Assembly: GCA_020247395.1 (NCBI GenBank)
Contig: JADCJC010000020.1
Coordinates: 1 to 56,530, forward strand
From: Rhodocyclaceae bacterium
Lineage (GTDB): Bacteria > Pseudomonadota > Gammaproteobacteria > Burkholderiales > Usitatibacteraceae
DNA length: 56,530 bases
Reading direction: 5' to 3'
Shown here: positions 22,589 to 50,615 of the stretch, piece by piece
How positions within the stretch are numbered: position 1 is the first letter of the stretch
How the letters are laid out: each line of letters starts with the position of its first letter
Notes under the pieces: model-generated
What the model was told of the DNA's origin: nothing
Seen by the model: only the letters and a program-made list of their open reading frames with translations
Database searches by the model: none
Position numbers and translations under genes: made by a program

Positions 22589-22956
22589 TGGGCTATCTTG
22601 ATGATCCGCGTGTGTTGTTCGCCGCCGAGCGCACCTTGCTTGCGTGGCAGCGAAGTGGGCTCGCGCTAATGGGATTCGGTTTCGTCGTGGAGCGATTCGG
22701 GTTGTTCATGCGCATGGTCACCGGGCAGGCACCGAGCCACGTTGATCGGGCGTTCTCGCTATGGCTGGGTGTGGCGCTGCTTTGTATGAGTGCGGCGGTG
22801 ATGGGCTTTGCGGCTGTGCAGTTTCGTACTGTTGTTCAACAACTGGGCGCTGGCGAAATTCCTGCGGGTTATGCACCCAATGCGGCGGTTTGGCTGAATG
22901 GCGTGCTTGCCGTGACCGCATTGGCGCTCGCCACGTATTTTGTCGTGAGCGGTTAG
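22588..22956 (+). CDS. DUF202/YidH-family membrane protein
   Basis: A 122-residue inner-membrane protein with three hydrophobic segments and the DUF202 signature DPRVLFAAERTLLAWQRSGLAL. I use the ATG at 22588, joined to the previous stop as TGATG, rather than the TTG at 22585. YidH-like proteins have no firmly known role. Here it is translationally coupled to a sulfur-handling operon, which suggests an accessory role in that module. Confidence 0.85.
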   Translation: MGYLDDPRVLFAAERTLLAWQRSGLALMGFGFVVERFGLFMRMVTGQAPSHVDRAFSLWLGVALLCMSAAVMGFAAVQFRTVVQQLGAGEIPAGYAPNAAVWLNGVLAVTALALATYFVVSG

Positions 22957-23506: not shown

Positions 23507-24760
23507 ATGCGCAATCGCTACTCCGCTGGAAATTTGATCGGTGCGGCCATCGGTGGCCACAAAGACTGGGCACCCGCTTGGCTAGATGTGGACCCAAAGC
23601 CGCGATACGATGTGATCGTCATTGGTGGTGGTGGCCATGGCTTAGCGACGGCTTATTACCTTGCAAAGAATCATGGTATGACGAACGTTGCCGTCGTTGA
23701 GGCAGGGTGGATTGGTGGCGGTAACACTGGTCGGAATACAACCGTGGTGCGCTCAAATTATCTGTACCCCGAAAGCGCGCGCCTTTATGATTTTTCCGTT
23801 CAGCGCTATGAATCGCTGTCAAAAGACCTTAACTTTAATGTGATGTTTAGCCAGCGCGGAGTTATCACTCTGGCGCATTCTCGCCACGACCTCGACGCCC
23901 AGGAACGCTGGACCAATGCGATGTTATGCAATGGTATTGACGCGGAGATGCTCAACGCGCGTCAAGTCCAAGAATGTGAGCCGCGTCTGGACATTAGCAG
24001 CAGGGCGCGATACCCAATTCTTGGCGGCTTCATCCAACGGCGGGCCGGATCTGCGCGCCATGATGCCGTCGCGTGGGGTTACGCGCGCGGAGCATCGGCG
24101 CTCGGCGTCGACATAGTGCAGCAGTGTTCGGTACTCGATTTCATCAAGAAACATGGCCGGGTCGTTGGTGTCAAGACTAGCCGGGGTGAAATTCGCGCCG
24201 ACCGCGTGGCCATGGCAGTCGCCGGCCACTCTTCCGTGTTGGCCAACCTTGCAGGATTTTCGCTGCCGGTGACAAGTTATGCTTTGCAGGCGATGGTGAG
24301 TGAGCCGGTCAAGCCGGTACTCAAAGCAGTTACGCTATCGCCGGCGCTGGGCGCTTACTGGAGCCAGTCCGACAAGGGTGAGGTGGTGATCGGCGGTGCA
24401 CTCGATCACTTTCCGTCGTATGCGCAGCGTGGCAGTTTTGCGATCAATCAGCAGGCCATCGCGGCGACCGTCGAGGCATTCCCCTCGTTGGGACGCCTGC
24501 GGCTGTTGCGTCAGTGGGCGGGCATTGTCGACGTTGTTAAGGACTCGAGTCCGATCATCGGTGCTACCCCCATTCCCGGCTTGTACATCAATTGTGGCTG
24601 GGGGACGGGCGGTTTTAAAGCCATCCCGGTGGGAGGTTGGATACTCGCGCACGTGCTGGCCACCGGCCAAAATCATGAACTTGCTGAAGCGTTTCAACTC
24701 GCCCGTTTTCACACCGGGCGTTTGATCGATGAAGCGGCTGCTTCCGGCATCGCCCACTGA
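23507..24760 (+). CDS. soxB: Sarcosine oxidase, beta subunit
   Basis: A 417-residue FAD protein: NRYSAGNLIGAAIGGHKDWA at the N-terminus is typical of SoxB, followed by the dinucleotide-binding strand VIVIGGGGHGLATAYYLAKN and the RNTTVVRSNYL block, where the flavin is covalently attached in family members. The GTGGFKAIP stretch near residue 365 is also conserved. SoxB oxidises sarcosine to glycine and formaldehyde equivalents within the SoxBDAG complex in the cytoplasm. It is the first gene of the sox operon, starting at the ATG at 23507. Confidence 0.96.
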   Translation: MRNRYSAGNLIGAAIGGHKDWAPAWLDVDPKPRYDVIVIGGGGHGLATAYYLAKNHGMTNVAVVEAGWIGGGNTGRNTTVVRSNYLYPESARLYDFSVQRYESLSKDLNFNVMFSQRGVITLAHSRHDLDAQERWTNAMLCNGIDAEMLNARQVQECEPRLDISSRARYPILGGFIQRRAGSARHDAVAWGYARGASALGVDIVQQCSVLDFIKKHGRVVGVKTSRGEIRADRVAMAVAGHSSVLANLAGFSLPVTSYALQAMVSEPVKPVLKAVTLSPALGAYWSQSDKGEVVIGGALDHFPSYAQRGSFAINQQAIAATVEAFPSLGRLRLLRQWAGIVDVVKDSSPIIGATPIPGLYINCGWGTGGFKAIPVGGWILAHVLATGQNHELAEAFQLARFHTGRLIDEAAASGIAH

Positions 24761-24774
24761 GGAGCGAGTTATAA

Positions 24775-25053
24775 ATGATGCAATTGCAATGCCCATTTTG
24801 TGGATATCGCCCTGAAAACGAGTTCGACTGCGGTGGTACCACGGCGATCGCACGCCCGCCGATCGACTGCAGTGATGAGGTGTGGGGAGACTATCTTTTC
24901 TTTCGCGTGAATCCGAAGGGGCTTCACGCCGAACGCTGGCGACATACATTTGGTTGCGGCCAGTGGTTCAACGTCGTTCGCGACACGGTCACGCATGAGG
25001 TGAGCGCCGTTTACCGCATTACTGAGTCGCGGCCACGCGCGCTCGATCCATGA
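24775..25053 (+). CDS. soxD: Sarcosine oxidase, delta subunit
   Basis: A 92-residue zinc-binding subunit. Zinc ligands are visible in LQCPFCGYRPENEFDCGG and in the HTFGCGQWFN block. It starts 14 bases after soxB with a GGAG-type Shine-Dalgarno and overlaps the soxA start (ATGA). It has a structural role in the heterotetramer. Confidence 0.95.
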   Translation: MMQLQCPFCGYRPENEFDCGGTTAIARPPIDCSDEVWGDYLFFRVNPKGLHAERWRHTFGCGQWFNVVRDTVTHEVSAVYRITESRPRALDP

Positions 25054-27956: not shown

Positions 27957-28533
27957 AAATCTTCTCCAGTTACGGCGGCTGCAAATGAGTGGTGTCGCGC
28001 AACTCATTCCGCGTGCCACCGACAATTGTCAGGTTTCGGTTGTTGAATCGCAGCGCGTGATCTCGATACGCCATTTGCCTGATTGTGAGAATTCGGTGTC
28101 GCATTTCTTTGCCGGAGAAAATGCGCTACAACCCCCTCAGGCCGGCCACTTCGAAGGTAGTGACCCCTGGATGTTATGGCGTAGTCCGAACGAATATCTA
28201 CTGATAACGTCATCGGATGTGTTTGCCAACGATTCGCTTGCGGCGCTTCCCGCAACCCGAAACGCGCTTGCTTACGCATTAGATCTATCAGCAGGATATT
28301 TGATTGTTGAATTGCTTGGAGACGGCATTGTGGATGTACTGCCGCGTCTGCTTGACGCGAGTGCAATTCCGCAAGCCGCAGGTCGGTGCTGTCGAGCCCG
28401 CTTGGCAGAGATTGCGGTGATCGCGGTGAGATTGGCGGACGACCGAGTTTGGTTAGTCGCTGACCGTGCCAATGATCGCTATTTGATGCTCTGGATTGCC
28501 TACGCTGTGCAGGCCTCGGCACCGCGACCATGA
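27946..28533 (+). CDS. soxG: Sarcosine oxidase, gamma subunit
   Basis: A 195-residue protein with SoxG features: PDCENSVSHFFAGENALQPP, then DPWMLWRSPNEYLLI and a C-terminal FHLLWD-like position reading RYLMLWIAYAV. I choose the TTG at 27946, which follows a strong Shine-Dalgarno and overlaps soxA by 11 bases; the open frame extends much further upstream inside soxA only as a shadow. Gamma closes the BDAG set and binds the GcvT-like half of alpha. No folate-recycling gene (purU, fdhA) follows; the next gene is on the opposite strand. Confidence 0.88.
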   Translation: MKAENLLQLRRLQMSGVAQLIPRATDNCQVSVVESQRVISIRHLPDCENSVSHFFAGENALQPPQAGHFEGSDPWMLWRSPNEYLLITSSDVFANDSLAALPATRNALAYALDLSAGYLIVELLGDGIVDVLPRLLDASAIPQAAGRCCRARLAEIAVIAVRLADDRVWLVADRANDRYLMLWIAYAVQASAPRP

Positions 28534-28677: not shown

Positions 28678-30789
28678 TCAGCGGTTGTTTTCCTTGGTGG
28701 TGCTTAACGCAGGCCACAGCTCGAAGCGCCGCAGCAGTGGCATTGGGTCAGGATCATGCCCTGCAAAGCTGCGAAAGGCAGCTTCCGCCGCCACGCGATG
28801 GCCGACGCTTAGGATCTGATCGATCCAGGCTTTGGAAGTCGCCGCGTCGTAGATCCCGTCTGGCGATTCTTCAAACGTTCTAACGGCATCGGCTGCCATC
28901 ACATCGGCCCATAGATACGAGTAGAGACCTGCAGCGTAAGCGCCGACGAAGACGTGGGGGTTATGTGTGACGCGCATGATCACGTCCCATGCTTCGGGCA
29001 TACCCAGTTCGATCAACGTATCGTTTTCCACCTTTACCGGGTCAATTTGCTTGCCGCTGCCATCGGCCATCAAATGTAGGCGCAGGTCAACGATGGCCGG
29101 CATTAGGTAATCTGGATTGAGGCTAAAGGGACGATCGTATTTGAGCCCTTGTTCGATCCGGTCGAGCAATTCATTCGGCATCGGCTCGTCCGTCAGGTGA
29201 TGGTGCGCGAAGCGATGCAGCAGCTCTGCGTCGCGCAACCAGCGCTCATTGATTAGGGCAGGTAGCTCGACGAAATCCCACGCCACATGCTGACTGCCTA
29301 GAGATACATAGGCCGACGTACAGTGCAACATATGCAAAGCATGACCAAACTCGTGGAAGAACACATTGGCGTACTCCCAAGGCAGTAGGGCAGGCTGGCC
29401 GTGTGGCGGCGCTGGAAAAGTTGAATAGATTGCGCTGATCGGCAGCACCCGCCCAGCAAAACGCTCTGCCTCACGGTACTGCATCTGGTAGGAGCCGTGG
29501 CTTTTACCCTGGCGGTTGAAGAGGTCAAAGTAGAGAACGCCTATGGCCTCAGAGGCGCGATTGACTGCATACACGCGTACGCTGGGGTGGATCAACGGCG
29601 CATCGGCAATCGGCGTGAAGCTGAGGCCATGCACGCGACCTGCGGCCCAGAACATTGCCTGCAATACGTTTTCTAATGGGAAGTACGCTTTGACAGCGTC
29701 GCCGTCCAAACCAAAACGTTGCCGCCGCAGCTTTTCGGCGTAAAACTGGCGATCCCACGGTGCGAGGGGCGCACTCGCGGTGCACTCGTCGGCGCTTTGG
29801 TCGGCAATCGCTTGATAGTCGGCAAGCTGCGCGCACGCCATTGGCTTAACGCTGGCCCAGGTTTGCTCCAACAGCGATAGCGCGGCTTGCGGCGTACGCG
29901 CCATCCGGTCGGACAGCGCCAGATGGGCGTAGCTCGGGTAACCCAACAGCCGCGCTAGTTCTCCGCGCAACAATAGGATCTCCTGCGCGACGGGCTTATT
30001 GTCGTTTGCACTTCGGTTGTCGCCGCGATTGGTCCACATTCGCCAGACTTGCTCACGTAAATCGCGTCGGGTCGCCAAGGTCAGAAAAGGCCATACTGCG
30101 CCGCGCGTGTTGGGAATAGCCCAGACGCCGGGGCGGCCCATATCCGCGGCTGCTGCCGCCGCCGCTTGACGCAGCCGATCGGGCAGGCCGTCCAGCGCTG
30201 AGTCATCCTCGATTAACACCGCCTGGCGGCTCGCCTCTTCGATCAAGTTTTGGTCGTATTGCGAGGACAACGCCGCCAGCCGCCCACTGATCTGCGCTAG
30301 CCGCTTCTTGGCGGCAGGCGCAAGGCCCGCACCACGCCGTCGCATACGTTGGATCAGCACTGCCAACAGGCGCCGTTTTTCGTCCGTTAGCCGTGCTATC
30401 TCGTCGCTATTCCACACGGCGTTTAGCCTGGCAAACAAGCGCTCGTCATGTGCTATCTCATCGTCTAGCGCAGCCAGCAGGGGCGGCACCCTTTGTGCAA
30501 CTGTCGGCATGTTGCCAAGACTTTGGCTGTTGGCATACACGCGGAACACACACAGTACGCGCGCCAAGGCGCGACCTGAATCTTCCAGCGCTTCCGCCGT
30601 GTTTGCGAAGGTGGGGGGCGCATTATTTGAGGCAATGGAATTGACTTCAGATCTTTTCCATTCAATCGCAACGCTTATGGCTTCTTCCAACGCCGCGATA
30701 TCGACGTTTTCCAAGGGAGGTAAGCCGCCATACGGACCAGCCCACGGCGAAAGCAGTGATCGCGCTTTGTCGGAAAGTGTCACACTCAT
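28678..30789 (-). CDS. M3 family oligopeptidase (Dcp/OpdA-like)
   Basis: A 703-residue zinc metallopeptidase with no signal peptide, so cytoplasmic. The active site is FHEFGHALH (His479, Glu480, His483), and the third ligand lies about 25 residues on in WDFVELPALINERW. Length and the two helical halves fit thimet-type oligopeptidases, which cut short peptides of up to about 20 residues inside their tunnel. It is the last gene of the minus-strand block running from the TonB receptor; the preceding hydrolase gene ends 12 bases upstream. In that setting it would reduce imported peptides to small fragments. Confidence 0.95.
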   Translation of the reverse strand: MSVTLSDKARSLLSPWAGPYGGLPPLENVDIAALEEAISVAIEWKRSEVNSIASNNAPPTFANTAEALEDSGRALARVLCVFRVYANSQSLGNMPTVAQRVPPLLAALDDEIAHDERLFARLNAVWNSDEIARLTDEKRRLLAVLIQRMRRRGAGLAPAAKKRLAQISGRLAALSSQYDQNLIEEASRQAVLIEDDSALDGLPDRLRQAAAAAAADMGRPGVWAIPNTRGAVWPFLTLATRRDLREQVWRMWTNRGDNRSANDNKPVAQEILLLRGELARLLGYPSYAHLALSDRMARTPQAALSLLEQTWASVKPMACAQLADYQAIADQSADECTASAPLAPWDRQFYAEKLRRQRFGLDGDAVKAYFPLENVLQAMFWAAGRVHGLSFTPIADAPLIHPSVRVYAVNRASEAIGVLYFDLFNRQGKSHGSYQMQYREAERFAGRVLPISAIYSTFPAPPHGQPALLPWEYANVFFHEFGHALHMLHCTSAYVSLGSQHVAWDFVELPALINERWLRDAELLHRFAHHHLTDEPMPNELLDRIEQGLKYDRPFSLNPDYLMPAIVDLRLHLMADGSGKQIDPVKVENDTLIELGMPEAWDVIMRVTHNPHVFVGAYAAGLYSYLWADVMAADAVRTFEESPDGIYDAATSKAWIDQILSVGHRVAAEAAFRSFAGHDPDPMPLLRRFELWPALSTTKENNR

Positions 30790-30801
30790 CGAAGGGCCTC
30801 C

Positions 30802-31575
30802 TTAGCCCAGCGCTTGATCGAGAAACGCGCGCACTGGAGGGACCACCAATTCGGGTGCCATGCATACACCGTGACCCTGACCCGGCACCTCGTGTACGGT
30901 CCAGCCTTGCTTGACCAGCGCAACACGCTGCTCGCGGATGATCGAAGCGATGCGAATGGGAATTCCTGCTTCGACTAAGTCGCCATCGCCCCCGAAAAAA
31001 ACCATCTTCGAGCAACGGATGCGCGCCACCGCAGTTGCTTCGTGCCAGCTCAGCATACTGGCGTAGTAGGCCGCCCACTGGCGATACTGCTCCTTGGATC
31101 GGAGCACTTTCAGAGACGAGGGGTCAGGCTTAGCCTGCTTCAAACGCGTGGCTAGCAGGATGTCGTCGTAGGGTGCGCACAGCGGTGGCCAGCCGCCTAG
31201 AATGAGTGCACTGAGCCGGTCTGTGCGATCCGCAAGCTGTAATCCCACTGCCGCGCCCCAGGAGTAGCCCCAGTAGGCGAATCTATCGAAACCTGCCGCA
31301 GTGGCAACTGCCAACATATCGTGGCATACCCGCTCGGCAGTGAGATCTTCCGGCGCAATATCTCGGCTGCCGCCCACACTCGGGTAATCGACCAGCAGAA
31401 CGCGATAGCGATCAGTCAAGCGACCAAGATACCCAGCCAGTACCACTTGTAATTCCGGCCCAAAGATCTGCGTGAATGACGCCATCAAGGGCAAGCCAAT
31501 GAGCAGCGGTTTGCCCTCGCCATACACTTCATAAAACACCCCGCTGGCCGGATCAAGCGGCATTTGTCGTTTCAT
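30802..31575 (-). CDS. Alpha/beta hydrolase
   Basis: A 257-residue alpha/beta hydrolase without signal peptide. Nucleophile motif GYSWGA, the acid in GGDGDLVEAG and His in GQGHGVCM give a complete triad. Its start overlaps the end of the DUF885 gene (by 23 bases, or 11 if the second Met is used). It could be an esterase, thioesterase or peptidase of the proline-iminopeptidase kind; the sequence does not decide. Tight packing makes it part of the peptide-degradation operon. Confidence 0.88.
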   Translation of the reverse strand: MKRQMPLDPASGVFYEVYGEGKPLLIGLPLMASFTQIFGPELQVVLAGYLGRLTDRYRVLLVDYPSVGGSRDIAPEDLTAERVCHDMLAVATAAGFDRFAYWGYSWGAAVGLQLADRTDRLSALILGGWPPLCAPYDDILLATRLKQAKPDPSSLKVLRSKEQYRQWAAYYASMLSWHEATAVARIRCSKMVFFGGDGDLVEAGIPIRIASIIREQRVALVKQGWTVHEVPGQGHGVCMAPELVVPPVRAFLDQALG

Positions 31576-33274
31576 CCTGCTGCTCTCGACGCAGCCAGTC
31601 GCTAACTAGATCGTCCAAAACCGGCAGCGTCACTGCACCTGCGGTCATGACGGCCGTATGAAAGCGGCGATGCTGGAAGCGGGGACCGAGAACACTCTCG
31701 GCGCGCCGGCGAAGCTCGCGCAGCTTCAGGTTGCCCATTTGGTATCCCAGCGCCTGTGCGGGCAGCGCCGCATAGCGGTCCACCTCACCTTCAATGGTCT
31801 CGCGCGACAGCGTAAGTCGATCAGTCATGTACGCCACGGCGTGTTCCCGGCTCCAGCCTTTCACATGGATACCGGTGTCGACCACCAGCCGCACAGCACG
31901 CCACATCTCCATTTCGAGTCTACCGTAGTGTTCGTGCGGCGTGGTGTATACCCCCATCTCGATACCTAGTGTTTCACAGTAAAGCGCCCAGCCTTCTATG
32001 CACGCGGTGTACTTTACGGCACCATATCGGCGGAAGGCAGGGATACCGGACTGTTCATTTAGCAGGGCAAGGTGCATCAGATGGCCGGGCCAGCCTTCGT
32101 GCAGGACTAGCGCTGGGTGCAAGTAAGTCGGTGCCTTTGATGGCAGGCCGCTGATCCAGAAAATACCCGCAGTTGTGCCATCTGCTGCACTAGGCTGCGC
32201 GTATGCTGGTGGCATGCGCGCCGAAACGGCCTCGGCCATGCTCTGCACGCCATAGGTAATGCGCGGGATCAATCCAAAGAACTCTGGGATGCGGCGGTCG
32301 ACACGCTTACACAGTGCCTCAACACTTTGCCGCAAGGCAGCGGCAGATGGCGCGACGAACTGCGGGTCAGAGGCGAGGAAGGCGCGGTAGTTGGCAAGGT
32401 TGCCGTCAAATCCGGCGTTGGTCGCGACTGCAGCAATCTCTGCCTCGATGCGCTCGACTTCGGCCAGGCCAAGCGCGTGTATTTCCTCGGGTTCGATTGC
32501 CGTACTCGTGAAATGGTGCACCCACACGCGGTAATATTCTGCGCCAGCGGGGCCGTCAATACAACTTAATGTGTCCCGCGCGCCGCGTGCTAGCAAGCCC
32601 TCGAGGAAGTTTGCCCACGTGTGCAGTGCTGGCATCAAGGTCTCGCGGACAAGTGCCAACGCACGTGTCGCTTGGGTTTGTACCGCAGCAAGATTCGAGG
32701 GTGAGCGTTTGAATGGTGACAGCCATGCGGACGCTTCCGCCGGAGCGGCCAAGATACCGCGGGTATTGCCGGCGCCTGCCTTGAGTACCGCACGTGGGTA
32801 GCGATACCCGCGTGTATATCCAACTTCAATATTGGTCTGCACGTCGCGTAGGTAGGCGGGCAATGTGGCTAGGCGATCGACATATTGCACTGCAGTCGCC
32901 GCATCGCTCACGCTCGCGGAGTTTGCCCAAAACACCGCTGTAAAGTCGGGCCCGGCTGGAAACAGCCAGGGGCGCAAATGTGATTCCACAGCGTATTGGG
33001 CGCGAAGGCCTGATAACTCGCGCTTAAGTAGGGCGAGTGTTGCCTTTTCTTGTACCGTCAAGTCGCGGGCATCAATTTGTTCGGTGTCCGCGAGTAACTC
33101 GCCAGCATGCCGATTACGTCGCGCGTGGTCCTCCGCTGACTCGCGAAACAATACCGCATCGGGCAGTGCTATACCGGCCAAGGCTGCGGTGAGCGGAAGC
33201 TCTCTGCATTCAAGTTCCCAATAGCGCGCCGCCAATGCAGCCAAGCGCTGCGCCGGGCTTTCTAGTGTTGTCAA
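31553..33274 (-). CDS. DUF885 family metallohydrolase
   Basis: A 573-residue DUF885 protein, a family of likely zinc peptidases. The metal motif is HEGWPGH (His392, Glu393, His398), followed by a conserved Glu in IEGWALYCETLG. The N-terminal half is helical. No signal peptide. Characterised DUF885 members are few; peptidase activity on short or modified peptides is the usual suggestion. It overlaps both neighbours by four bases or more, so all three hydrolases are co-translated. Confidence 0.92.
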   Translation of the reverse strand: MTTLESPAQRLAALAARYWELECRELPLTAALAGIALPDAVLFRESAEDHARRNRHAGELLADTEQIDARDLTVQEKATLALLKRELSGLRAQYAVESHLRPWLFPAGPDFTAVFWANSASVSDAATAVQYVDRLATLPAYLRDVQTNIEVGYTRGYRYPRAVLKAGAGNTRGILAAPAEASAWLSPFKRSPSNLAAVQTQATRALALVRETLMPALHTWANFLEGLLARGARDTLSCIDGPAGAEYYRVWVHHFTSTAIEPEEIHALGLAEVERIEAEIAAVATNAGFDGNLANYRAFLASDPQFVAPSAAALRQSVEALCKRVDRRIPEFFGLIPRITYGVQSMAEAVSARMPPAYAQPSAADGTTAGIFWISGLPSKAPTYLHPALVLHEGWPGHLMHLALLNEQSGIPAFRRYGAVKYTACIEGWALYCETLGIEMGVYTTPHEHYGRLEMEMWRAVRLVVDTGIHVKGWSREHAVAYMTDRLTLSRETIEGEVDRYAALPAQALGYQMGNLKLRELRRRAESVLGPRFQHRRFHTAVMTAGAVTLPVLDDLVSDWLRREQQDETTNAA

Positions 33275-34467
33275 CGCGCGCGCTCCCGACGTGTAACGTC
33301 ATCAACACAAATCACATCTTTCATCACGCTGATTGTCCAATCTGGAATTTCATACACAAAATTGTGTCCCGCTCCCTTCGGCGCAACCACGCGATGCGAC
33401 TGGGTCGAGGTTGCGAGATAGCGCTCGCGGGTTGCGGCAAAGAAGCGCATCATACGTTGTGCGTTAGCCGTATTTTGTTGTCGGGTTTCGGGTAGGGCGG
33501 CAATGTCACCGTCTGCATCGTCACGCGGGCCGACCAGCCAAACCGGCAGATCACCGAGATCGCGATCGTACACAACAGTATCCCAAGCAACGGCAGCCAC
33601 ACCCTCAGGGCTCAGTTCGCGATAAATCGATGCTTGTGCAAAATAGCGGCCAGCGTTGGCTTCCACGTTGCGCACGTTCAACGCTTCTGCCCCCAACACT
33701 GCGCGCGTGGCGTCAATAGTCTTCGCATACGCCGGTGTCTGGCGCGCCTTGGCTTCAGATCGTTTTGCTAGATCGAGGCCGAACAGCTGCGCCATTCCGC
33801 CCAACCATGCTGCTCGGCGCATTTCCTTGAGGGCGCTCAAGCGCGGTCCAAAGGCTATGGTCTCAAGTGGAGTCGGGTCCAGCAGCACGAGTGTGTGTAC
33901 GAGATCTGGCCTGCGGCGTGCAATGTTTGCCGCCAGCAGGCCACCGAAAGAGTGCCCCGCCCAGACGAAGGGCCCCTTTTCGCCAGCCCGATCGAGAGCC
34001 AGCACCATTTCATCAGCTTCGCGCGCGGTGGTGCGCGGAAACGGGCCGGTGTCGCTCCAGCCTGTGCCGGGACGGTCGATGAGGATTGAGCGCGTCTCTT
34101 CTCGAAACGCACGGTGAAGATGATAGATGGCATATCCACTCGCGTGGCCACCGGCAAACCACACGACAGGCGGTCGGTTTGGACGCAGTGTCCCCTCTGC
34201 CAGCAGGTGAACGTGGTAGCCACCAAGATCAATCATGCAGCCGGGTGGAGGGTAGGCGCGGCGCGCCGTCGCCAATACGGCCAGGTGCCTCAGCGAGGCA
34301 AGCGCGAGAATCGCGGCCAACGTGAAGCCGATCCACTGAATCAGCGTCCCGCCGCGTTGCGAGAAATTTGCAGCCACGAAAGTCGCGAGTGTAACAGAGA
34401 GGGCAATCAGTAGGCCGGCCCACTCGCGGCTGAAAAGCGACAACAATCTGTCACGCCATGCTTGCAT
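33271..34467 (-). CDS. Membrane-anchored alpha/beta hydrolase
   Basis: A 398-residue protein. Two hydrophobic segments (about residues 15-35 and 45-65) anchor it to the inner membrane and are followed by an alpha/beta-hydrolase domain: VVWFAGGHASG (oxyanion), RPGTGWSD, and GHSFGG with the nucleophile Ser near residue 180. A late HN-containing GAGHNFVYEIP carries the catalytic His. The catalytic domain is probably on one face of the inner membrane; the two-span topology suggests the cytoplasm. It overlaps the DUF885 gene (ATGA) and starts three bases after the MFS gene. Confidence 0.9.
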   Translation of the reverse strand: MQAWRDRLLSLFSREWAGLLIALSVTLATFVAANFSQRGGTLIQWIGFTLAAILALASLRHLAVLATARRAYPPPGCMIDLGGYHVHLLAEGTLRPNRPPVVWFAGGHASGYAIYHLHRAFREETRSILIDRPGTGWSDTGPFPRTTAREADEMVLALDRAGEKGPFVWAGHSFGGLLAANIARRRPDLVHTLVLLDPTPLETIAFGPRLSALKEMRRAAWLGGMAQLFGLDLAKRSEAKARQTPAYAKTIDATRAVLGAEALNVRNVEANAGRYFAQASIYRELSPEGVAAVAWDTVVYDRDLGDLPVWLVGPRDDADGDIAALPETRQQNTANAQRMMRFFAATRERYLATSTQSHRVVAPKGAGHNFVYEIPDWTISVMKDVICVDDVTRRERAR

Positions 34468-34470
34468 GGC

Positions 34471-35736
34471 TCAGGTGCCGGCGGGGGTGGTAATGGAATG
34501 CGTCTTGTGCCAATGGCGAAACTCAGGCAGCATCCACGCAGCCACTGCAGCACAAATGAATGCTCCCATCGATACCAGCAGTGCTACATCGTAGCTGCCA
34601 GTGCGGTCGTGCACCAACCCCATAAGCCAAGGTGCTGTGCCACTGCCGAAGGCGGTTGCAACCTGCTGCGTTGCGCTAGCACGTCCGAAGCTTTCAACGC
34701 TGAAATAGCGCCTTGCCAGAAAGACGGAAAGACTATGGTCGCCCGAATTGAATATGCCCAAGAGTAAGGCGGCTGCAATGATCATGCCGACACCGGGGCC
34801 AAAATAAATCATTACGGTGGCACCTAGCGGGGCGATGACAAACAGGCGGGCTAGCCGCGTCGCAGATGTGTGATCGATCAGCCATCCGGCCATGAGATTG
34901 CCGAAGAATCCACCAGCGCCGATCAGGCTCATCGCGGTTGCAGCTTGGGCGAGAGTCATGCCACGATCCTGCATCATGGCCGCGAAATGAACCAGGATGC
35001 CGGCTACCGCAAAGCCGAACAGCATGTTCCAAACCGCCAAGGTCCACCAGACACGGTCGCTCAAAAATGCGCGCATCGAGACAGGTAGTGGGGAGGAGGC
35101 GCTCGCTTCAACCGGCGTCCCCGACCCCGCGGGTAGTCCTGCGTTCGGTCGCTCGCGGACTAAGAACCAAGCTGCCAAGCCGCCGCCGATCAGACTCATT
35201 AGTGCCATCGCCATGAACGCCTCTCGCCAGCTGGCATGGGAGATCACTACACGGACGATCTGTGGATGGATCACAGCGCCCAACGTGACTAAGGCAAACA
35301 GTAGGCCTAGCGCCCGCCCAAAGGCCTTGTCGAACCAGGTTTGCAGAAGCTTGGACAGCGTAAGGAACGAGGCACCGCTCGCGGTGACGGTCATTACCAA
35401 ACACAATACATAGTAGACCCAGACGCTGCCGTGCATGAAACCAAACCCGGCAAGACTTGCCGACTGCAGCACGACACCCCACAGCACCAATGGGCGCAGC
35501 GGCACTTTGTCAATGATCCAGCCTACCAGTGGCAGGATGGCCGGTCCTACGATCGTCATCAGCGTCAGCGAGAAGGTGATATCGGCGCGCGACCAACCCA
35601 ACTCTTTCTGCATCGGCAGCATCAACAGGCCGAATGTCGAACCGTAGAGTGACGTGACACCAAAGATTGCGACAATGCAGCAGCCTGCCAGTACCCTCCA
35701 GCTGGTCGGCGAGTCGACTACCGGAGCGACGCTCAA
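34471..35736 (-). CDS. MFS transporter
   Basis: A 421-residue transporter with 12 predicted membrane spans and a typical MFS loop (DHTSATRLARL between helices 8 and 9). It resembles the oxalate/formate or monocarboxylate-like MFS group (LPMQKELGWSRADITFSLTL near residue 40). The start is TTG at 35736; no ATG lies near enough to give helix 1. It lies 80 bases downstream of the TonB receptor stop and three bases before the membrane-anchored hydrolase. By context it carries the receptor substrate, or a product of it, across the inner membrane. Confidence 0.9.
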   Translation of the reverse strand: MSVAPVVDSPTSWRVLAGCCIVAIFGVTSLYGSTFGLLMLPMQKELGWSRADITFSLTLMTIVGPAILPLVGWIIDKVPLRPLVLWGVVLQSASLAGFGFMHGSVWVYYVLCLVMTVTASGASFLTLSKLLQTWFDKAFGRALGLLFALVTLGAVIHPQIVRVVISHASWREAFMAMALMSLIGGGLAAWFLVRERPNAGLPAGSGTPVEASASSPLPVSMRAFLSDRVWWTLAVWNMLFGFAVAGILVHFAAMMQDRGMTLAQAATAMSLIGAGGFFGNLMAGWLIDHTSATRLARLFVIAPLGATVMIYFGPGVGMIIAAALLLGIFNSGDHSLSVFLARRYFSVESFGRASATQQVATAFGSGTAPWLMGLVHDRTGSYDVALLVSMGAFICAAVAAWMLPEFRHWHKTHSITTPAGT

Positions 35737-35816
35737 GCGGCAATCTCAGTTAAATGCGGCTCTACCACGATACGTTCGCGCTCAAGCTGAGACTTTCGGG
35801 ACATTCCGCGCCATGG

Positions 35817-38015
35817 TCAGTAGTCGTAACGCAGCGACACGGTCGCCGTGCGAGGGCGCTGTAGGAAGTATTGAGAGAACGCCCCCACGCCACCGGGTGC
35901 CCCGGTGATGCTGAGAACGCCTTTCTGATTGGTGACGTTTGATACGCCAGTTGCGAGCGTCCAGTTCGAATGGGCGAAGGTCAACCCGAGGTCCAGCGTG
36001 TTAAACGCGTCGGCAGGCTTGTTGCCCCCCAAGAACATCACGCGATCACCGACGTGCGTCCAAGTCGCATTCAAGCGGCCTTGGGTGTCAAGCGGACCGA
36101 CGAATTTTGCGTTGGCTTGAAGCGCAGCCTGTAGCCTCGGCGTGCCGGGCAAACGGGAGCCGGCCGCTGCCGTGATTGCAGTTCGACCAGATGGCACGTT
36201 GGTATCAGTGAGCGTCTTGGCATTGATGGAGGCTATTGAAGCTGCGATGTCGAAGGTTGTATCGATGCGGTAGCGCAGCGCCGCCTCCAGTCCTGTACTG
36301 CGCGCTTTGCCAACGTTGTCGATACCGGATTCGGGTAGCCGTCCATTGAGTTGGAAGTAGGTGAATTGCGCGTCTTTCCAGTCTTGAACGAAGGCCGTGA
36401 GGTCAATCTGTAGGCCTTTCGCAGGCGACAACCGAACGCCGGTCTCGTAGTTCCATAGCGAATCGGACTTGAACGCCCTGAACGGCGTTGTTCCATTAAC
36501 CCCACCATAGCGATAGCCTTGGGCCGCCAGCGCATACCAGAGCTGGTCCTGAGCAAACCGATACTTCAGTGTCAACTTGGGTGTGAAGCCACTGTCGCTG
36601 CCATTGGGGACGTCGATGTTGGACGGCGCACCGAAGTTCGTTCCGCGTTGCTGCGAGTTGGTCGTCGTGCGGTAATAGCGGCCACCGGCACCAGCGCTCC
36701 AACCGCTGCCAAAGGCGTACTCGGTGTCCGCGAAGGCGGCTTTCTCCGTGCCGCCACCGGTTGAGGTCAGATCGACCAGCGTGGTCAAGCCAAAAGCGCC
36801 CGAGGGATCGATCTGTTTAGCTGCACTTGAGCCCTTTTGGGTTTGGTAGAACACGCCGACGACATAGCTAAAGTTACCACCGGGGTTGCTGGCGATACGC
36901 AATTCTTGCGATGTCGCGTCGCTTGAGCCGGATTGGGGGCGATACACTTGTGGTACCACCACGCCAACGCTGGCGAAGAGTTCGGTGTCGTCAATGAGCC
37001 GTGAAAAGGTTGACTTAAGTCGACCGGTAATGGACGTTAGCGTGGCGTCGCCCAACTTCCAGTCAGCCGTTAAGCTATAGAAGTCTGTTGTACTACTCCG
37101 TGTTGAATTGTTTGGCGACGTGTGCTGTAGGCGTGTAGCGTCTGGAGATACACTGAAGGTGTCACCTTGCTCGGTCTTCTGGGTACTCAGTACTAGTGTG
37201 GCGGTCAGATCCTTTACTGGCCGCACGGTGATTAGGGCTCGGCCTCCGGTCTGGTGGACATCGTTGGCGTCCTGCTTCTTGGTGCCAAGGTTGTCGATGT
37301 AGCCAGGGTCCCGCCGGTCGAAGGCGACAAGGCGTACTCCAGCAACATCCTCAGAAAGCGGCGCGTTGATCATGCCATAGAAAGAGAACTTGCCATCGCC
37401 ATCCGATGCTTTAGCATATTCCGACTTGATACTGGCCTCAAAACTGTTCAGGCGAGGCTTGTTAAACAGGTAGCGTACGGCACCGCCGAGCGAACCCGAA
37501 CCGAACAATACACCTTGCGGGCCACGCAGCACTTCCACGCGGTCCAGATCCCAAGTCAATACATCCAATACAGTGCCTTTACCAGTAGCCGAAGCCAGCG
37601 GTACATCTTCAAGGTACAGGCCGGTTGGCCCCTGTTGGGCTCCGCCACCCTCGTTAGTGGTACTGGTGCCGATTCCTCGAATGGTAATGGTGTTGCTCGC
37701 AACATCACCTTTATTGAACTGCAACCCCGGGGCAAGCTTGAGAGTGTCTTCTTGGTCGCGAGCGCCTCGACGCTCAAGATCGCTGCCATTGAGAACGGTC
37801 ACTGTGCCCGCGACTTCCCTTTGGGACTCAGTACGTTTATTGGCGGTAACCACGATCGTTTCCACCGTCGGCTGTGTCGCCGGCGGCGGGGGAGGTGGCT
37901 GCTGTGCTGCGGTCGGTAGCGAGCCGACCATTCCCGCTGCCAACAAGGCGCGAACGATCATGTTTATGGCTGTCGGATTGACGGTATTGTTGGGGGAAGC
38001 CGTTTTTGTTGTCAT
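35817..38015 (-). CDS. TonB-dependent receptor
   Basis: A 732-residue outer-membrane receptor. Signal peptide (about residues 1-37) is followed by a polyproline stretch and the TonB box VETIVVTA, the plug domain (about 55-170, QREVAGTVTVLNGSDLERRG) and a beta barrel ending in the typical terminal aromatic (SLRYDY). No N-terminal signalling domain, so it does not use FecIR-type regulation. It heads a six-gene minus-strand block (receptor, MFS, hydrolase, DUF885, hydrolase, M3 peptidase) and has a candidate AraC site about 100 bases upstream. Substrate likely a peptide or peptide-like compound, by inference from the peptidases. Confidence 0.95.
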   Translation of the reverse strand: MTTKTASPNNTVNPTAINMIVRALLAAGMVGSLPTAAQQPPPPPPATQPTVETIVVTANKRTESQREVAGTVTVLNGSDLERRGARDQEDTLKLAPGLQFNKGDVASNTITIRGIGTSTTNEGGGAQQGPTGLYLEDVPLASATGKGTVLDVLTWDLDRVEVLRGPQGVLFGSGSLGGAVRYLFNKPRLNSFEASIKSEYAKASDGDGKFSFYGMINAPLSEDVAGVRLVAFDRRDPGYIDNLGTKKQDANDVHQTGGRALITVRPVKDLTATLVLSTQKTEQGDTFSVSPDATRLQHTSPNNSTRSSTTDFYSLTADWKLGDATLTSITGRLKSTFSRLIDDTELFASVGVVVPQVYRPQSGSSDATSQELRIASNPGGNFSYVVGVFYQTQKGSSAAKQIDPSGAFGLTTLVDLTSTGGGTEKAAFADTEYAFGSGWSAGAGGRYYRTTTNSQQRGTNFGAPSNIDVPNGSDSGFTPKLTLKYRFAQDQLWYALAAQGYRYGGVNGTTPFRAFKSDSLWNYETGVRLSPAKGLQIDLTAFVQDWKDAQFTYFQLNGRLPESGIDNVGKARSTGLEAALRYRIDTTFDIAASIASINAKTLTDTNVPSGRTAITAAAGSRLPGTPRLQAALQANAKFVGPLDTQGRLNATWTHVGDRVMFLGGNKPADAFNTLDLGLTFAHSNWTLATGVSNVTNQKGVLSITGAPGGVGAFSQYFLQRPRTATVSLRYDY

Positions 38016-38079
38016 GATGTCTCTCCTATTCAGATGGGATGGCCATACCGTGCTTGGCCGACGCGCTACCGGTCAAATG

Positions 38080-38085
38080 AGTATA
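38080..38085 (-). promoter_or_regulatory. -10-like element of the TonB receptor operon
   Basis: TATACT on the minus strand, 65 bases before the receptor start codon, with a poor -35 at the expected distance. A weak -35 fits an activator-dependent promoter with the AraC site upstream. Confidence 0.35.
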
Positions 38086-38117
38086 GGGCGCAAACAACGG
38101 ACTCGTTTTTGACGTTG

Positions 38118-38143
38118 CACCGAATATTTAGGCGGATTCACCG
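38118..38143 (-). promoter_or_regulatory. Candidate AraC operator upstream of the TonB receptor operon
   Basis: On the minus strand the first 19 bases read CGGTGAATCCGCCTAAATA. The divergent dipeptidase promoter region carries CGGTTGATTCGCCTAAATA on the plus strand: 16 of 19 positions agree without gaps, in the same orientation relative to the gene served. The site ends 103 bases from the receptor start. The AraC gene lies between the two sites. Confidence 0.5.
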
Positions 38144-38191
38144 AGGCAAGTTTGAGCGCTTTAGGACGGCTGGTGGCCTCAGGATACGCCT

Positions 38192-39304
38192 TCACATCCG
38201 CGCTGGAATTGGTCCAAGCGGCAGGCTGAATGGTGCACGATGTTGCCGATAATCCCGCGGCGACATACCAACGTGGCTACAAAATGCCGCAGCAAAACTG
38301 CTCTGGTGCTTGTATCCCACTCTTTCCGCGACTTGGGCGATGGTGAGCTTCGCCTGTAACAGAAGCTGCTGTGCCTCGCGCATTCGCCTTTCGAGACAAT
38401 ACTCGGTCATCGTTACACCGAATACATCTCTGAATACTGCCTTTAGCTTGTTCTGATTAGTGCCGATATCCCGCGCAAGTTTGACGAAACAAGGCGGCTT
38501 ACGGTAATCGCGCGCTAGCCGTTCAAGTGCCGAATTGGCCAATTCCACGTCGCGATGCCTATTTAGCGCACCACCTCGCAGCGAAGGGGTATGGTGCATG
38601 GCATCAAGCGTGAAGGCTACTAACTCGGCAAGACGTCCAGCGTACTGCACGACGCGAAGCTCACTTTCCAGCGGACTATCAATCGTGTCAGCAATCAGGC
38701 CTGCAATCCGATGATTAAGAGGGAACGACGCAATTCGGCCAGCTGCGCCTGAAGCCGCGAGTACTTCCCGCATAACCGCCGGTAGGTCCTCAACCCGCAA
38801 ATCGTACCGTGCGGCAAATGTAGACGCACGGAATACGGCGATGATTCCCTGCTGTCGCACACCTCCGACGATGTCTACGACCTGCATCCGGCCACCTGGC
38901 ACGCAGGCTAATGTCACTTCAGGTCGATTGAATATCATAGGCGCAGCACCTTCTACCTGAAAGGTTACATCGCAACAAAGCGATGCCCGCAATACAATCA
39001 GCGGTTCATCGTTATCGTAGCGCCAGCTCGCCGATGCGGGCAGGACACAGTTGACGACGGTAAGAATGACATCGTTGTCGGCAAATCGAACGACATCCGC
39101 TGTGCCGGCTCCGCCGGCTCGTGCGAGAAACTGCCGCACACCATTGCGCGCAAATCGTTTGAACTCCGTGTGCTCGGCTGTAGCGCGGAACGCCTCCTGC
39201 TCGAAATCAAGCGCCGACCAAGCGCCCGATTGCTTCCTCGCTCTGGAGGGCTTACGTTTGACGACGATGTTCGGCGATGATTGACCTAGGTGCCTGGACG
39301 TCAT
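38192..39304 (-). CDS. AraC family transcriptional regulator
   Basis: A 370-residue regulator. The ATG at 39304 is chosen (MTSRHLGQSSPNI); the open frame runs back to 39442 over the promoter region and beyond the dipeptidase start. The C-terminus carries two helix-turn-helix motifs of the AraC/XylS type: NKLKAVFRDVFGVTMTEYCL then LTIAQVAERVGYKHQSSFAA, with a final MSPRDYRQ. The N-terminal ligand domain is of unknown specificity. Placed between the receptor operon and the divergent dipeptidase, it is the natural regulator of both; the plus-strand site sits just upstream of its own ATG, allowing autorepression. Confidence 0.93.
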   Translation of the reverse strand: MTSRHLGQSSPNIVVKRKPSRARKQSGAWSALDFEQEAFRATAEHTEFKRFARNGVRQFLARAGGAGTADVVRFADNDVILTVVNCVLPASASWRYDNDEPLIVLRASLCCDVTFQVEGAAPMIFNRPEVTLACVPGGRMQVVDIVGGVRQQGIIAVFRASTFAARYDLRVEDLPAVMREVLAASGAAGRIASFPLNHRIAGLIADTIDSPLESELRVVQYAGRLAELVAFTLDAMHHTPSLRGGALNRHRDVELANSALERLARDYRKPPCFVKLARDIGTNQNKLKAVFRDVFGVTMTEYCLERRMREAQQLLLQAKLTIAQVAERVGYKHQSSFAAAFCSHVGMSPRDYRQHRAPFSLPLGPIPARM

Positions 39305-39305
39305 C

Positions 39306-39332
39306 CGGTTGATTCGCCTAAATAAATGGGTG
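39306..39332 (+). promoter_or_regulatory. Candidate AraC operator upstream of the dipeptidase
   Basis: CGGTTGATTCGCCTAAATA (39306-39324) followed by AATGGGTG. It matches the site upstream of the TonB receptor at 16 of 19 positions. A -10-like TAATAT follows at 39340. It starts one base upstream of the AraC start codon on the other strand. Confidence 0.5.
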
Positions 39333-39417
39333 TTTCGACTAATATACCTTGCCTTTGGGTGACGTAACATTAAGGCGATGAATTCACGCCGCTCGGCAAC
39401 GGACCCCGCGATGACTG

Positions 39418-40461
39418 ATGGCAAACCCACAAGAGTGTGCACATATGAGTTTGGTCACAACGTCCAACATTGAGATGACCAGCGCAGCGCAGGTGCTGCG
39501 CAACAGTATCGTTTGGGACAACCACGGCTGTATGCCGGTAATGCGTCCGCACAATACGTCTTTCTTGCCCCAGCTACAGCGCTATCGGGTAGCCGGTGTG
39601 GATGCAGTCATGCTCAATATCGGTTTTGGCGATATGGGCATCGAAGAGCACATTCGCACCCTCGCGAGCATTCGTCACTGGCTAAAATTGCGCCAGAGCG
39701 AATATGTACTCATCACGAGTGTCGATGATATAGAGCTCGCCCATCAAACTGGTCGGCTTGCAGTTGGTTTTGATATCGAGGGTGGAAACGCCATTGCCGA
39801 CCAACCAAGTTTGCTTCAACTTTATTACGACCTCGGCGTGCGGTGGATGCTGCTGGCCTACAACAACAGCAACCGCATAGGCGGGGGGTGTCAGGACGAT
39901 GACGGTGGTCTTACCTCGTTTGGAAGGGAAGTGATTACCGAAATGGAGCGTGTGGGCATGATCGTCTGCTGTAGCCATACGGGCCATCGGACCGCGCGAG
40001 AGGTGTTGGAAGTCGCTACCAAGCCAGTTATTTTTTCACACAGCAATCCGAGCGCATTGCATCCGCATCCGCGCAACATTCCCGACGATCTTATTCTTGG
40101 CTGCGCAGCAACCGGCGGGGTTGTGGGCATCAACGGGATTGGCAGCTTTCTCGGAACAAACGATAACACCAGCAAAACATTCGCCAGACATATTGACCAT
40201 GTCGTTCAACTCGTCGGCCCGCAGCACGTGGCCATCGGCCTTGATTACGTATTCGATACACAGGAACTGGATGACTATGTGGCGAAGATGGCCCACACGT
40301 TTCCGCCAGAACTTGGCTATGAAAAGGGTGTACGTCTGGTTGCACCCGAGCAGCTTGAAGAGGTTGTGGAGATCTTGCTCTCGTGGGGCTACTCCAAAGG
40401 CGACCTCGGTTCGATCTTGGGCGGTAATCTCATGCGTTTGGCAAGAACGGTATGGAAATAG
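39418..40461 (+). CDS. M19 family membrane dipeptidase homologue
   Basis: A 347-residue protein of the renal-dipeptidase (M19) family; starts at 39418 and 39445 are both possible, and similarity begins near residue 24. Metal-site blocks are WDNHGCMPV (usual HxD of the family), DIEGGNAI (bridging Glu), CCSHTGH and FSHSNPSAL (two His) and IGLDYVFD (Asp). In the first motif the aspartate of HxD is replaced by Cys, a substitution that could still bind zinc. M19 enzymes cut dipeptides, including ones with D-residues or dehydro-residues. There is no signal peptide, so it is cytoplasmic. It is divergent from the AraC gene and is followed by the deiodinase-like gene. Confidence 0.9.
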   Translation: MANPQECAHMSLVTTSNIEMTSAAQVLRNSIVWDNHGCMPVMRPHNTSFLPQLQRYRVAGVDAVMLNIGFGDMGIEEHIRTLASIRHWLKLRQSEYVLITSVDDIELAHQTGRLAVGFDIEGGNAIADQPSLLQLYYDLGVRWMLLAYNNSNRIGGGCQDDDGGLTSFGREVITEMERVGMIVCCSHTGHRTAREVLEVATKPVIFSHSNPSALHPHPRNIPDDLILGCAATGGVVGINGIGSFLGTNDNTSKTFARHIDHVVQLVGPQHVAIGLDYVFDTQELDDYVAKMAHTFPPELGYEKGVRLVAPEQLEEVVEILLSWGYSKGDLGSILGGNLMRLARTVWK

Positions 40462-40534
40462 CCATTCCCACAATTGCAGGCTAACGCCGAAATCGAGCTA
40501 CCCTGCAGTTTTCGCCGTGGAAAAACATCGCCTC

Positions 40535-40540
40535 AGGAGG
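40535..40540 (+). promoter_or_regulatory. Shine-Dalgarno deciding the deiodinase-like start
   Basis: A perfect AGGAGG five bases before the TTG at 40546. It fixes the start of the following gene at TTG rather than at the open-frame TTG at 40474. Confidence 0.8.
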
Positions 40541-40545
40541 CCGAA

Positions 40546-41250
40546 TTGAAACCGCACGATTCCATTCCCCTCAACTTCATCGAGTATCCTTCCGATGCCA
40601 TGCTTGAGCGTGCCAGAGGGTTTTACGCCGAGATGAGCGGACGACGCACTGTGCGGGAATTTTCCTCACGGCCGGTGGCCCGTGAGTTGATCGAAACATG
40701 CATACGCACTGCGGGGACCGCACCTTCTGGTGCCAATCAGCAGCCTTGGCACTTCGTGGTTGTGAGTGATGCGCAAATGAAGTCGCGCATACGATTCGCA
40801 GCTGAAGCTGAGGAAACCGAGTTCTATGAACGCCGAGCGACCGATGAATGGCTGGAAGCACTCGCGCCACTTGGAACCGATGCAGACAAGTCCTTTCTAG
40901 AAGTCGCCCCTTACCTTATCGCCATTTTCTATGAGGCCTACGGTTTCGATGATGCGGGCAAACGCATAAAACGCTACTACCCGATGGATTCGGTCGGTAT
41001 TGCCAGCGGGATGTTGATCGCGGCGTTGCATCACGCCGGGCTCGCCAGCCTCACACACACGCCAAGCCCAATGGCGTTTCTGAATGAAATCCTCGGTCGT
41101 CCGGATAACGAGCGTCCTTTCTTGTTGCTGGTGGTGGGGTATCCCGCCAATGGCGCGCGGGTGCCGAGTATCACGAGGAAACCACTGGCATCGATCGCAC
41201 ATTTTGTTGAACAACCGAATGTGGCAGCTTTATCGACTGATCAAACCTAG
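40546..41250 (+). CDS. Iodotyrosine deiodinase-like flavoprotein (nitroreductase superfamily)
   Basis: A 234-residue FMN protein starting at TTG 40546 behind a perfect AGGAGG. Most annotation would call it nitroreductase, but it aligns along its whole length with vertebrate iodotyrosine deiodinase recalled from memory: [29 protein letters not shown], a [10 protein letters not shown] segment, [18 protein letters not shown] and RKPLASI near the end. The active-site lid keeps Glu90, Tyr94 and Lys115 at spacings of 4 and 21, the same as human Glu157, Tyr161 and Lys182 that bind the amino-acid zwitterion. This points to reductive dehalogenation of free halotyrosine, or a related tyrosine derivative. 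It lies 84 bases downstream of the dipeptidase, co-oriented. Confidence 0.85.
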
Positions 41251-44570: not shown

Positions 44571-44600
44571 GTCGGCCCAAAGCCGCTATCGGCGAAAGCT
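44571..44600 (+). repeat. Short intergenic motif, variant copy with inverted partner
   Basis: GTCGGCCCAAAGCCGC followed by TATCGGCGAAAGC. The first part matches the motif at 43117, and the whole can fold (GCCGCTATCGGCGAAAGC). It begins directly after the stop codon of the serine hydrolase. Confidence 0.4.
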
Positions 44601-44612
44601 TCTCAAGTTCAT

Positions 44613-44645
44613 CGTTTGATCCGCCGAATCAAATACAATTCGACG
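44613..44645 (+). promoter_or_regulatory. Weak third match to the AraC-type site
   Basis: CGTTTGATCCGCCGAATCAA agrees with the first part of the dipeptidase site at 11 of 13 bases and then falls off. It starts 105 bases before the cysteine hydrolase ATG, a spacing similar to the two better sites. Confidence 0.25.
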
Positions 44646-44717
44646 ACAACGTTTTTTGGCCTGCGCAACAAAACCGTGCAGGCCCCTGAACTCAAACATT
44701 AGGTGTCAAACTTCACG

Positions 44718-50494: not shown

Positions 50495-50615
50495 TAGCAG
50501 GCGAATGTTGCATTATGGCTGGATCTTGGTGCGATTGATGCCTATGTGACTAGGCTGCTTGGCGAGCAATGGCACTTATCATTTAGGCCATCGTCACGGA
50601 AAATACGAGGAAAGT

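Follow-up and report, generated by a model that had tools for sequence, protein, structure and literature searches.

An iodotyrosine deiodinase-type flavoprotein encoded in a candidate locus for uptake and hydrolysis of a peptide-like compound in a Rhodocyclaceae bacterium

Introduction

The mlr cassette for microcystin degradation combines peptide import with stepwise hydrolysis. On plasmid pHR1a of Novosphingobium resinovorum, a putative catabolic locus encodes a TonB receptor, DPP IV, a DUF885 protein, an MFS transporter, aminopeptidase P and leucyl aminopeptidase. A plasmid locus of Variovorax paradoxus VAI-C encodes an M19 protein, a D-aminopeptidase-like serine hydrolase, an MFS transporter, an FAD oxidoreductase, RidA and an S9 peptidase.

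Structures of iodotyrosine deiodinase (IYD) include the mammalian entries 4ttb, 3tnz and 3gb5, and the bacterial entries 5ko7, 5ko8 and 5krd, which we take to be the Haliscomenobacter hydrossis enzyme (the PDB table labels 5ko7 only 'Nitroreductase'). We know of no established role for IYD in bacteria. A passage of PMC13078365 reports the enzyme from mammals to bacteria, and the reference list of PMC8076288 includes a dissertation on the H. hydrossis enzyme. Among the article titles listed by our searches of open-licence PMC, none reports a bacterial IYD within a peptide catabolic locus.

Results

Within the window, i.e. the whole 56,530-nt stretch of DNA that was analysed, we found the following cluster.

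28678..30789, minus strand: M3 metallopeptidase, nearest to peptidyl-dipeptidase Dcp (PF01432; PRK10280 397 bits, cut-off 944; HExxH zinc motif as HEFGH in the translation)
30802..31575, minus strand: soluble alpha/beta hydrolase (PF12697/PF00561)
31553..33274, minus strand: DUF885 putative metallohydrolase (PF05960 431 bits; HEGWPGH in the translation; 3o0y in PDB)
33271..34467, minus strand: alpha/beta hydrolase, membrane-anchored, with two N-terminal hydrophobic segments at residues 17 and 48 (PF00561)
34471..35736, minus strand: MFS transporter (PF07690)
35817..38015, minus strand: TonB-dependent outer-membrane receptor (PF00593 and PF07715)
38125..38143, minus strand: shared motif of the left arm, preceding the receptor ATG by 109 nt
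38192..39304, minus strand: AraC-family regulator (PF12833; ATG at 39304 from comparison with the sister-species locus L002)
39306..39324, plus strand: shared motif of the right arm, preceding the M19 ATG by 120 nt and the AraC ATG by 1 nt
39445..40461, plus strand: divergent M19-family amidohydrolase/dipeptidase homologue (PF01244 253 bits, cut-off 26; His-Gly-Cys replaces His-x-Asp)
40474..41250, plus strand: IYD-type FMN flavoprotein (118/211 identity to 5ko7; lid residues E114, Y118 and K139)

All nine genes of the initial annotation were present at the positions and with the families assigned there, apart from two starts. Because the sister species has 11-nt and 1-nt length changes upstream, the comparison makes ATG 39304 the most likely start of AraC (not 39442) and ATG 39445 that of M19 (not 39418).

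The pHR1a locus resembles the cluster in its homologues of the TonB receptor (27%) and the DUF885 protein (38%) and in grouping an MFS transporter with peptidases in a single stretch, but its regulator is of the TetR type, whereas the regulator here is AraC. Its 21.6-kb stretch gave no match at 1e-4 to the IYD, M19, M3, hydrolases, AraC or MFS of the window. The Variovorax locus shares an M19 relative (53%), an MFS transporter, a regulator and peptidases; in the 20 kb on either side, M19 was the sole match to the cluster proteins at 1e-4. Only distantly related catabolic loci in which the window IYD is unmatched also contain M19 relatives, or a DUF885 protein together with a TonB receptor, so peptidases of the DUF885 and M19 types are not tied to IYD generally. 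The mlr cassette, by its general description, is a functional parallel only, and we claim no homology.

The nearest PDB sequences to this flavoprotein of nitroreductase fold are IYD structures: 118 of 211 residues are identical to the bacterial structure 5ko7 (1.8e-72), and the mammalian structures follow at 2.8e-49 to 1.3e-48. Matches to the BluB-like 3eo8 (8.2e-7) and to BluB 2isj (8.7e-5) were far weaker. The lid residues Glu, Tyr and Lys (E114, Y118 and K139) also occur in 5ko7 and were kept in 88 of 88 aligned sequences, namely the window protein and 87 relatives picked by similarity; three more flavin-site residues are kept in the flavoprotein as well. In IYD the three lid residues hold the amino-acid zwitterion in the active site. 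BluB was the top NCBIfam match (53.7 bits, cut-off 150), and we rejected this identity because the PDB matches and lid residues favour IYD. Identity and lid residues support the initial assignment as deiodinase-like. Hence, by sequence, the flavoprotein is IYD-type, with halotyrosine dehalogenation as its predicted activity. Its gene, unlike those of the known IYDs, lies among genes for uptake and hydrolysis.

The M19 protein contains the PF01244 domain listed above. Near the N terminus, M19 proteins carry His-x-Asp as a metal-binding motif; this protein has His36-Gly-Cys38 instead. The Asp is missing in all seven aligned M19 rows, with H36, E121, H187 and H208 retained. Among six order-level relatives, one has His-Arg-Asp (L112) and the other five lack the His as well; the PDB alignments of the protein cover regions outside this stretch. 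Judged by these residues, the protein is a divergent branch without one canonical metal ligand. Since the Asp is absent, dipeptidase activity is not a safe prediction, so that of the M19 dipeptidase first proposed, the family stands and the activity is weakened by the altered metal site.

The best PDB matches of the M3 protein were 1y79 and 5l43. Residues 27-557 of the DUF885 protein span the full PF05960 model (1-532 of 532); such proteins are commonplace, with four in this genome. The named models nearest to the MFS transporter are lactate and bile-salt carriers, both far below cut-off (NF049980, 107 bits against 320; NF038246, 90 against 400). The small alpha/beta hydrolase (30802-31575) lacks a strongly hydrophobic segment in a hydropathy scan, which cannot exclude signal peptides because the receptor, necessarily exported, also scored none. 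Inspected by eye, the translations of M3, DUF885, the small hydrolase, M19 and IYD revealed no signal peptide.

Each arm is preceded by a copy of a 19-nt motif; the two copies show 84% (16/19) complementarity and have identical orientation towards their arms. A match of 16/19 between the two intergenic stretches was reached in 5 of 1000 dinucleotide shuffles. The sister genome has both sites, with the core CGCCTAAATA identical and with 2 and 1 mismatches to the degenerate pattern built from the two copies. Chance origin was rejected on the basis of the shuffles and this retention, and the common motif claimed before both arms is real. The pattern was found three times in the window against 0.04 expected (the third match has 2 mismatches and lies inside an ORF), and at up to 3 mismatches at 10 sites in the genome against 3 for a backwards control; these counts are partly circular, because the pattern derives from the sites themselves. 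Exact matches in the genome are these two sites only.

The whole set occurs in identical order in one other genome, that of a sister species in the same genus (G009, locus L002). Of the 80 nearest IYD loci, L002 alone has the set. This sole orthologous cluster found (n = 1) keeps the flavoprotein in place. Searches with the MFS transporter and the membrane hydrolase at E 1e-50 in 398 genomes of the phylum, with at most four candidates scored in the genomes listed, returned only the bacterium's own genome.

Between the window and the sister species, dN/dS of the nine genes ranged from 0.09 to 0.34. Synonymous divergence was 0.086 for M19 and 0.056 for IYD, whereas the remaining seven genes lay at 0.21-0.93. 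We dropped strong constraint on M19 and IYD as an interpretation, because their synonymous divergence is low as well; the low dS points to a recently exchanged tract. In a one-contig genome without the cluster (G003), the sequence joins window positions 22627 and 41445 directly. Of the DUF202 gene, G003 has just the beginning (read by eye), so the junction looks like a deletion in G003 and was not accepted as proof of insertion. Gain of the cluster by its carriers and loss in G003 are both possible.

Next to the cluster lies a sarcosine oxidase operon (23507-28533) that shares its distribution (2 of 13 genomes of the genus).

23507..24760, plus strand: soxB, sarcosine oxidase beta subunit, a presumed pathway member (TIGR01373 646 bits, cut-off 529)
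24775..25053, plus strand: soxD, delta subunit (TIGR01374 113.8 bits, slightly below the cut-off of 116.5)
25050..27956, plus strand: soxA, alpha subunit (TIGR01372 1114 bits, cut-off 1164)
27691..28533, plus strand: probable soxG, gamma subunit (TIGR01375 22.7 bits, cut-off 143.95; weak, located C-terminally in the ORF)

Of the heterotetramer subunits, soxB thus scores above its cut-off, soxA and soxD slightly below, and soxG gives a weak match only. The true start of soxG is probably near 27950; a Pfam search of 27922-28530 gave no match. Searched within the window, the motif pattern had no match at this operon. The operon is absent from the initial annotation.

Discussion

Our best reading, which we propose tentatively, is a catabolic locus, specific to this lineage, that breaks down a peptide-like compound and so releases free halotyrosine. 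As we infer the pathway, the TonB receptor would import the compound and the MFS carrier would move it, or fragments of it, into the cytoplasm. The two alpha/beta hydrolases, the DUF885 protein, the Dcp-like M3 protein and the M19 homologue, cytosolic or bound to the inner membrane, would cleave ester and amide bonds. The IYD-type flavoprotein would then reductively dehalogenate free 3-halotyrosine, and the resulting tyrosine would enter the ordinary homogentisate route. Homogentisate dioxygenase is encoded in this genome and also in G003, which has no cluster. An N-methylglycine unit of this compound may be the substrate of the neighbouring sarcosine oxidase, and the locus would be controlled by its own AraC regulator. 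The sequence names no substrate, and nothing marks it as halogenated or peptidic. Of the peptide uptake and breakdown regulon proposed initially, the uptake and hydrolysis locus with its common motif holds, and the M19 dipeptidase step is weakened.

Alternatively, IYD could be a housekeeping or detoxification enzyme for halotyrosine from hypohalous-acid damage, downstream of M19 by accident, in a cluster that serves an unhalogenated peptide. A passage of a 2022 paper (PMC9751292) speculates that dehalogenases may reverse tyrosine chlorination by hypochlorous acid. The cluster set accompanies only one of the 80 nearest IYD loci (L002), and the adjacent genes of other near IYDs are diverse, with PIF1 helicase (5/64), PEPCK (4) and Na/Pi cotransporter (3) the most frequent; M3, M19 and DUF885 were not among the families listed for these neighbours. 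Furthermore, IYD may be an ordinary gene relocated into the cluster, because it is the sole copy in the genome and groups with four IYDs of its bacterial family that are situated elsewhere in their genomes. Against this stand the 12-nt gap to M19 on the same strand, the motif in common with the import arm and the retention in the sister species. Two IYDs of the same family clade also adjoin genes of similar kinds: the one in G014 is followed after 28 nt by a TonB receptor gene, the one in G012 after 73 nt by an alpha/beta hydrolase gene. We consider this explanation unlikely.

Somewhat less likely still is a small amide or ester as substrate (e.g. an N-acyl or D-amino-acid derivative) instead of an oligopeptide. 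In that case the M19 homologue would be an amidohydrolase whose products, D- or N-methyl-amino acids, feed oxidases of the DAO type, for example sarcosine oxidase. In three of the nine M19-relative loci examined, a DAO-type FAD oxidoreductase is encoded close by, adjacent in Novosphingobium THN1 (L133) and Rhizobium (L136) and within 5 kb in Variovorax (L134). The Variovorax locus further encodes RidA and a hydrolase resembling D-aminopeptidase (137.6 bits, cut-off 443). Hydantoinase subunits in G382 and the weak similarity of the MFS transporter to small-carboxylate carriers fit as well. Yet the Dcp-like M3 and DUF885 proteins indicate peptides, DAO-type oxidases are common, and none was found in the other six loci (L135, L137-L141), where often one or two adjacent genes were typed.

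Cyanopeptolin-type depsipeptides can be halogenated and N-methylated, with N-methyl-chlorotyrosine. It is highly improbable that the block is dedicated to such a cyanobacterial compound, with an esterase opening the lactone, stepwise peptidolysis, sarcosine oxidase removing N-methyl groups oxidatively and IYD removing the chlorine reductively; if true, a bacterial IYD would thereby have a physiological pathway. No result of this analysis points towards cyanobacteria.

Returning to a peptide-like compound that yields halotyrosine, the spacing, the shared motif and the presence in two species suggest that IYD is tied to the uptake and hydrolysis genes. This offers a candidate role for a bacterial IYD that can be tested in the laboratory, as the final step in feeding on a halotyrosine-bearing compound. 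If true, it would be one route by which halogenated amino acids return to the carbon cycle.

Gene layout and shared motif

The nine genes of the cluster were confirmed as described in the initial annotation. The features discussed first are:

28678-41250, both strands: cluster of nine genes, with an AraC gene between its two arms
39445-40461, plus strand: M19-family homologue
40474-41250, plus strand: iodotyrosine deiodinase (IYD)-type flavoprotein
23507-28533, convergent with the left arm: sarcosine oxidase genes soxB, soxD, soxA and soxG (soxG match weak)

The left arm runs in the order TonB receptor, MFS transporter, membrane-anchored alpha/beta hydrolase, DUF885, small alpha/beta hydrolase and M3. 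Because these genes overlap or lie at most 80 nt apart, the arm is likely transcribed as a single unit. In the right arm, IYD follows M19 after 12 nt. No signal peptide was apparent by eye in M3, DUF885, the small hydrolase, M19 or IYD. A hydropathy scan found two N-terminal segments in the membrane-anchored hydrolase and none in those five proteins; it also found none in the TonB receptor, and is therefore blind to signal peptides.

The claim of one motif upstream of both arms was borne out. The motif is 19 nt long, and its copies agree at 16 of 19 positions, have the same orientation relative to their arms, and precede the ATG of the receptor by 109 nt and that of M19 by 120 nt. When the two stretches were shuffled 1000 times, an equally good match arose only 5 times, and the sister species (G009, same genus) retains both copies with an unaltered core. 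With up to three mismatches, the motif occurred at 10 sites in the own genome (three in a backwards control); only the two cluster sites were exact. The right copy stops 1 nt short of the AraC ATG, a position that would fit self-control by AraC. A third match (7239-7257, two mismatches) lies within an ORF.

Distribution and history of the cluster

Conservation of the gene set held in part: the cluster genes recur in order at the IYD locus of the sister species (L002), but at only this one of the 80 IYD loci. The M3 gene of L002 extends past the end of the stretch; a complete one is found in L148. Partial matches were a DUF885 homologue (34%) in L036 and a SelO homologue in L078. At the remaining 77 loci, many of them short contigs, no other window protein was matched at 1e-8.

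Among 61 genomes, own included, M19 exceeded 90% identity in the own genome and G009 alone (31-35% in five more), and DUF885 exceeded 80% in the same two, with any DUF885 at 1e-30 in 21. IYD was present in nine of the 61 genomes and in seven of the 28 of the family; the membrane hydrolase was present in two of the 28. Among 398 genomes drawn from the phylum, seven including the own had M19 at 1e-60 (best other, 47%). Of the 13 genus genomes (five at least 90% complete), two in each set carry soxA, and the carriers of the sox genes are the two cluster-bearing genomes. In the sister, a beta-lactamase-family protein adjoins soxB (L149:4191-5906).

In G003, a one-contig genome without the cluster, window position 22627 is joined straight to 41445. 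Since only the beginning of the DUF202 gene (22585-22956) survives there, this looks like a deletion. The short ORF after this gene (23025-23312) has a weak, sub-threshold HTH_38 match, perhaps an IS30-like remnant.

Between the two carriers, dS was 0.086 for M19 and 0.056 for IYD, compared with 0.21-0.93 for the other seven cluster genes and 0.72 for SelO. Nucleotide identity to the sister was 93-99% over 39.6-42.0 kb, 87-92% in the preceding 0.9 kb and 68-81% in the following 0.9 kb, inside SelO. This profile suggests that 39.6-42.0 kb is a recently exchanged tract. Another tract of 90-97% identity lies at about 14.2-19.8 kb.

Elsewhere in the window, a beta-lactamase-family serine hydrolase and an isochorismatase-family hydrolase (43188-45326) lie between SelO and an ABC transporter; neither was matched beside SelO in G003. 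One predicted protein (2371-4956) combines a cyclophilin domain with FG-GAP repeats, a seemingly unusual pairing. A second TonB receptor (minus strand) lies at 48122-53403 with divergent histidine-phosphatase-family and amidohydrolase-family ORFs.

The flavoprotein and its neighbours

The closest solved structure to the flavoprotein is the bacterial IYD-type 5ko7 (1.8e-72; 118 of 211 residues identical), followed by mammalian IYDs. Glu114, Tyr118 and Lys139 align with the 5ko7 lid triad; the same three residues occur in every one of the 87 relatives aligned, which were chosen for their similarity to the window protein. The gene is single-copy in the own genome (E 0.001). In a tree of 89 sequences, the window IYD clusters with L002 and four same-family sequences (support 99/93; bootstrap not settled); the IYD of G007, the fifth IYD-bearing family member besides the own genome and the sister, is placed elsewhere.

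IYD could also be a general or detoxification enzyme, downstream of M19 by chance. Same-strand genes adjoining other IYDs, counted from rough gene calls at the 64 of 73 loci that were usable, included PIF1 (5), PEPCK (4), Na/Pi cotransporter (3), GDSL lipase (3), GCS2 (2) and gamma-glutamyltranspeptidase (1); M3, M19 and DUF885 were absent among the 25 of 81 adjoining families listed. Against a housekeeping role only, a family typed as M28 peptidase lies within four genes of IYD at three loci. Among the IYD genes of the own family, the one in G014 is followed after 28 nt by a TonB receptor gene and the one in G012 after 73 nt by an alpha/beta hydrolase gene; that of G011 has an interrupted frame and adjoins an alanine dehydrogenase and a saccharopine-dehydrogenase-like gene.

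The M19 homologue

In a seven-row alignment, His36, Glu121, His187 and His208 are retained, while Cys or Gly replaces the Asp of His-x-Asp. Among six same-order relatives, L112 has His-Arg-Asp and the other five lack the His as well. A DAO-type FAD oxidoreductase occurs at three of nine M19-relative loci, adjoining in L133 (Novosphingobium sp. THN1) and L136 (Rhizobium) and within 5 kb in L134 (Variovorax); none was found in L135 and L137-L141 among the genes typed, often just one or two per locus. Because of these residue and locus findings, the 'M19 dipeptidase' of the initial annotation is a family name, and its function is putative. On plasmid pTHN (L133:15344-22329), an M19 relative (60%) lies with gamma-glutamyltransferase and MFS genes amid transposases; the oxidase there is nearest to N-methyl-L-tryptophan oxidase, under the cut-off.

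Proposed pathway and relation to known loci

In the proposed pathway, a compound would be imported and then, presumably after import, hydrolysed; the free halotyrosine released would be reductively dehalogenated, and the product would enter the homogentisate route. HgmA is encoded in the own genome, yet also in G003. We consider it probable that the substrate is peptide-like; a halogen in it is suggested solely by the kinship and residues of IYD. The chance that IYD works within this pathway seems slightly below even, and participation of sarcosine oxidase is rather unlikely.

IYD, M3, DUF885 and sarcosine oxidase are each of a known kind. The Novosphingobium resinovorum pHR1a locus likewise combines a TonB receptor, DUF885, MFS and peptidases, and a Variovorax paradoxus VAI-C plasmid locus combines M19, MFS and peptidases, but the IYD of the window is unmatched in both. 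None of the titles listed from the open-licence literature reported a bacterial IYD in a peptide catabolic locus. The novelty resides in the combination of genes, as a variant of known loci.
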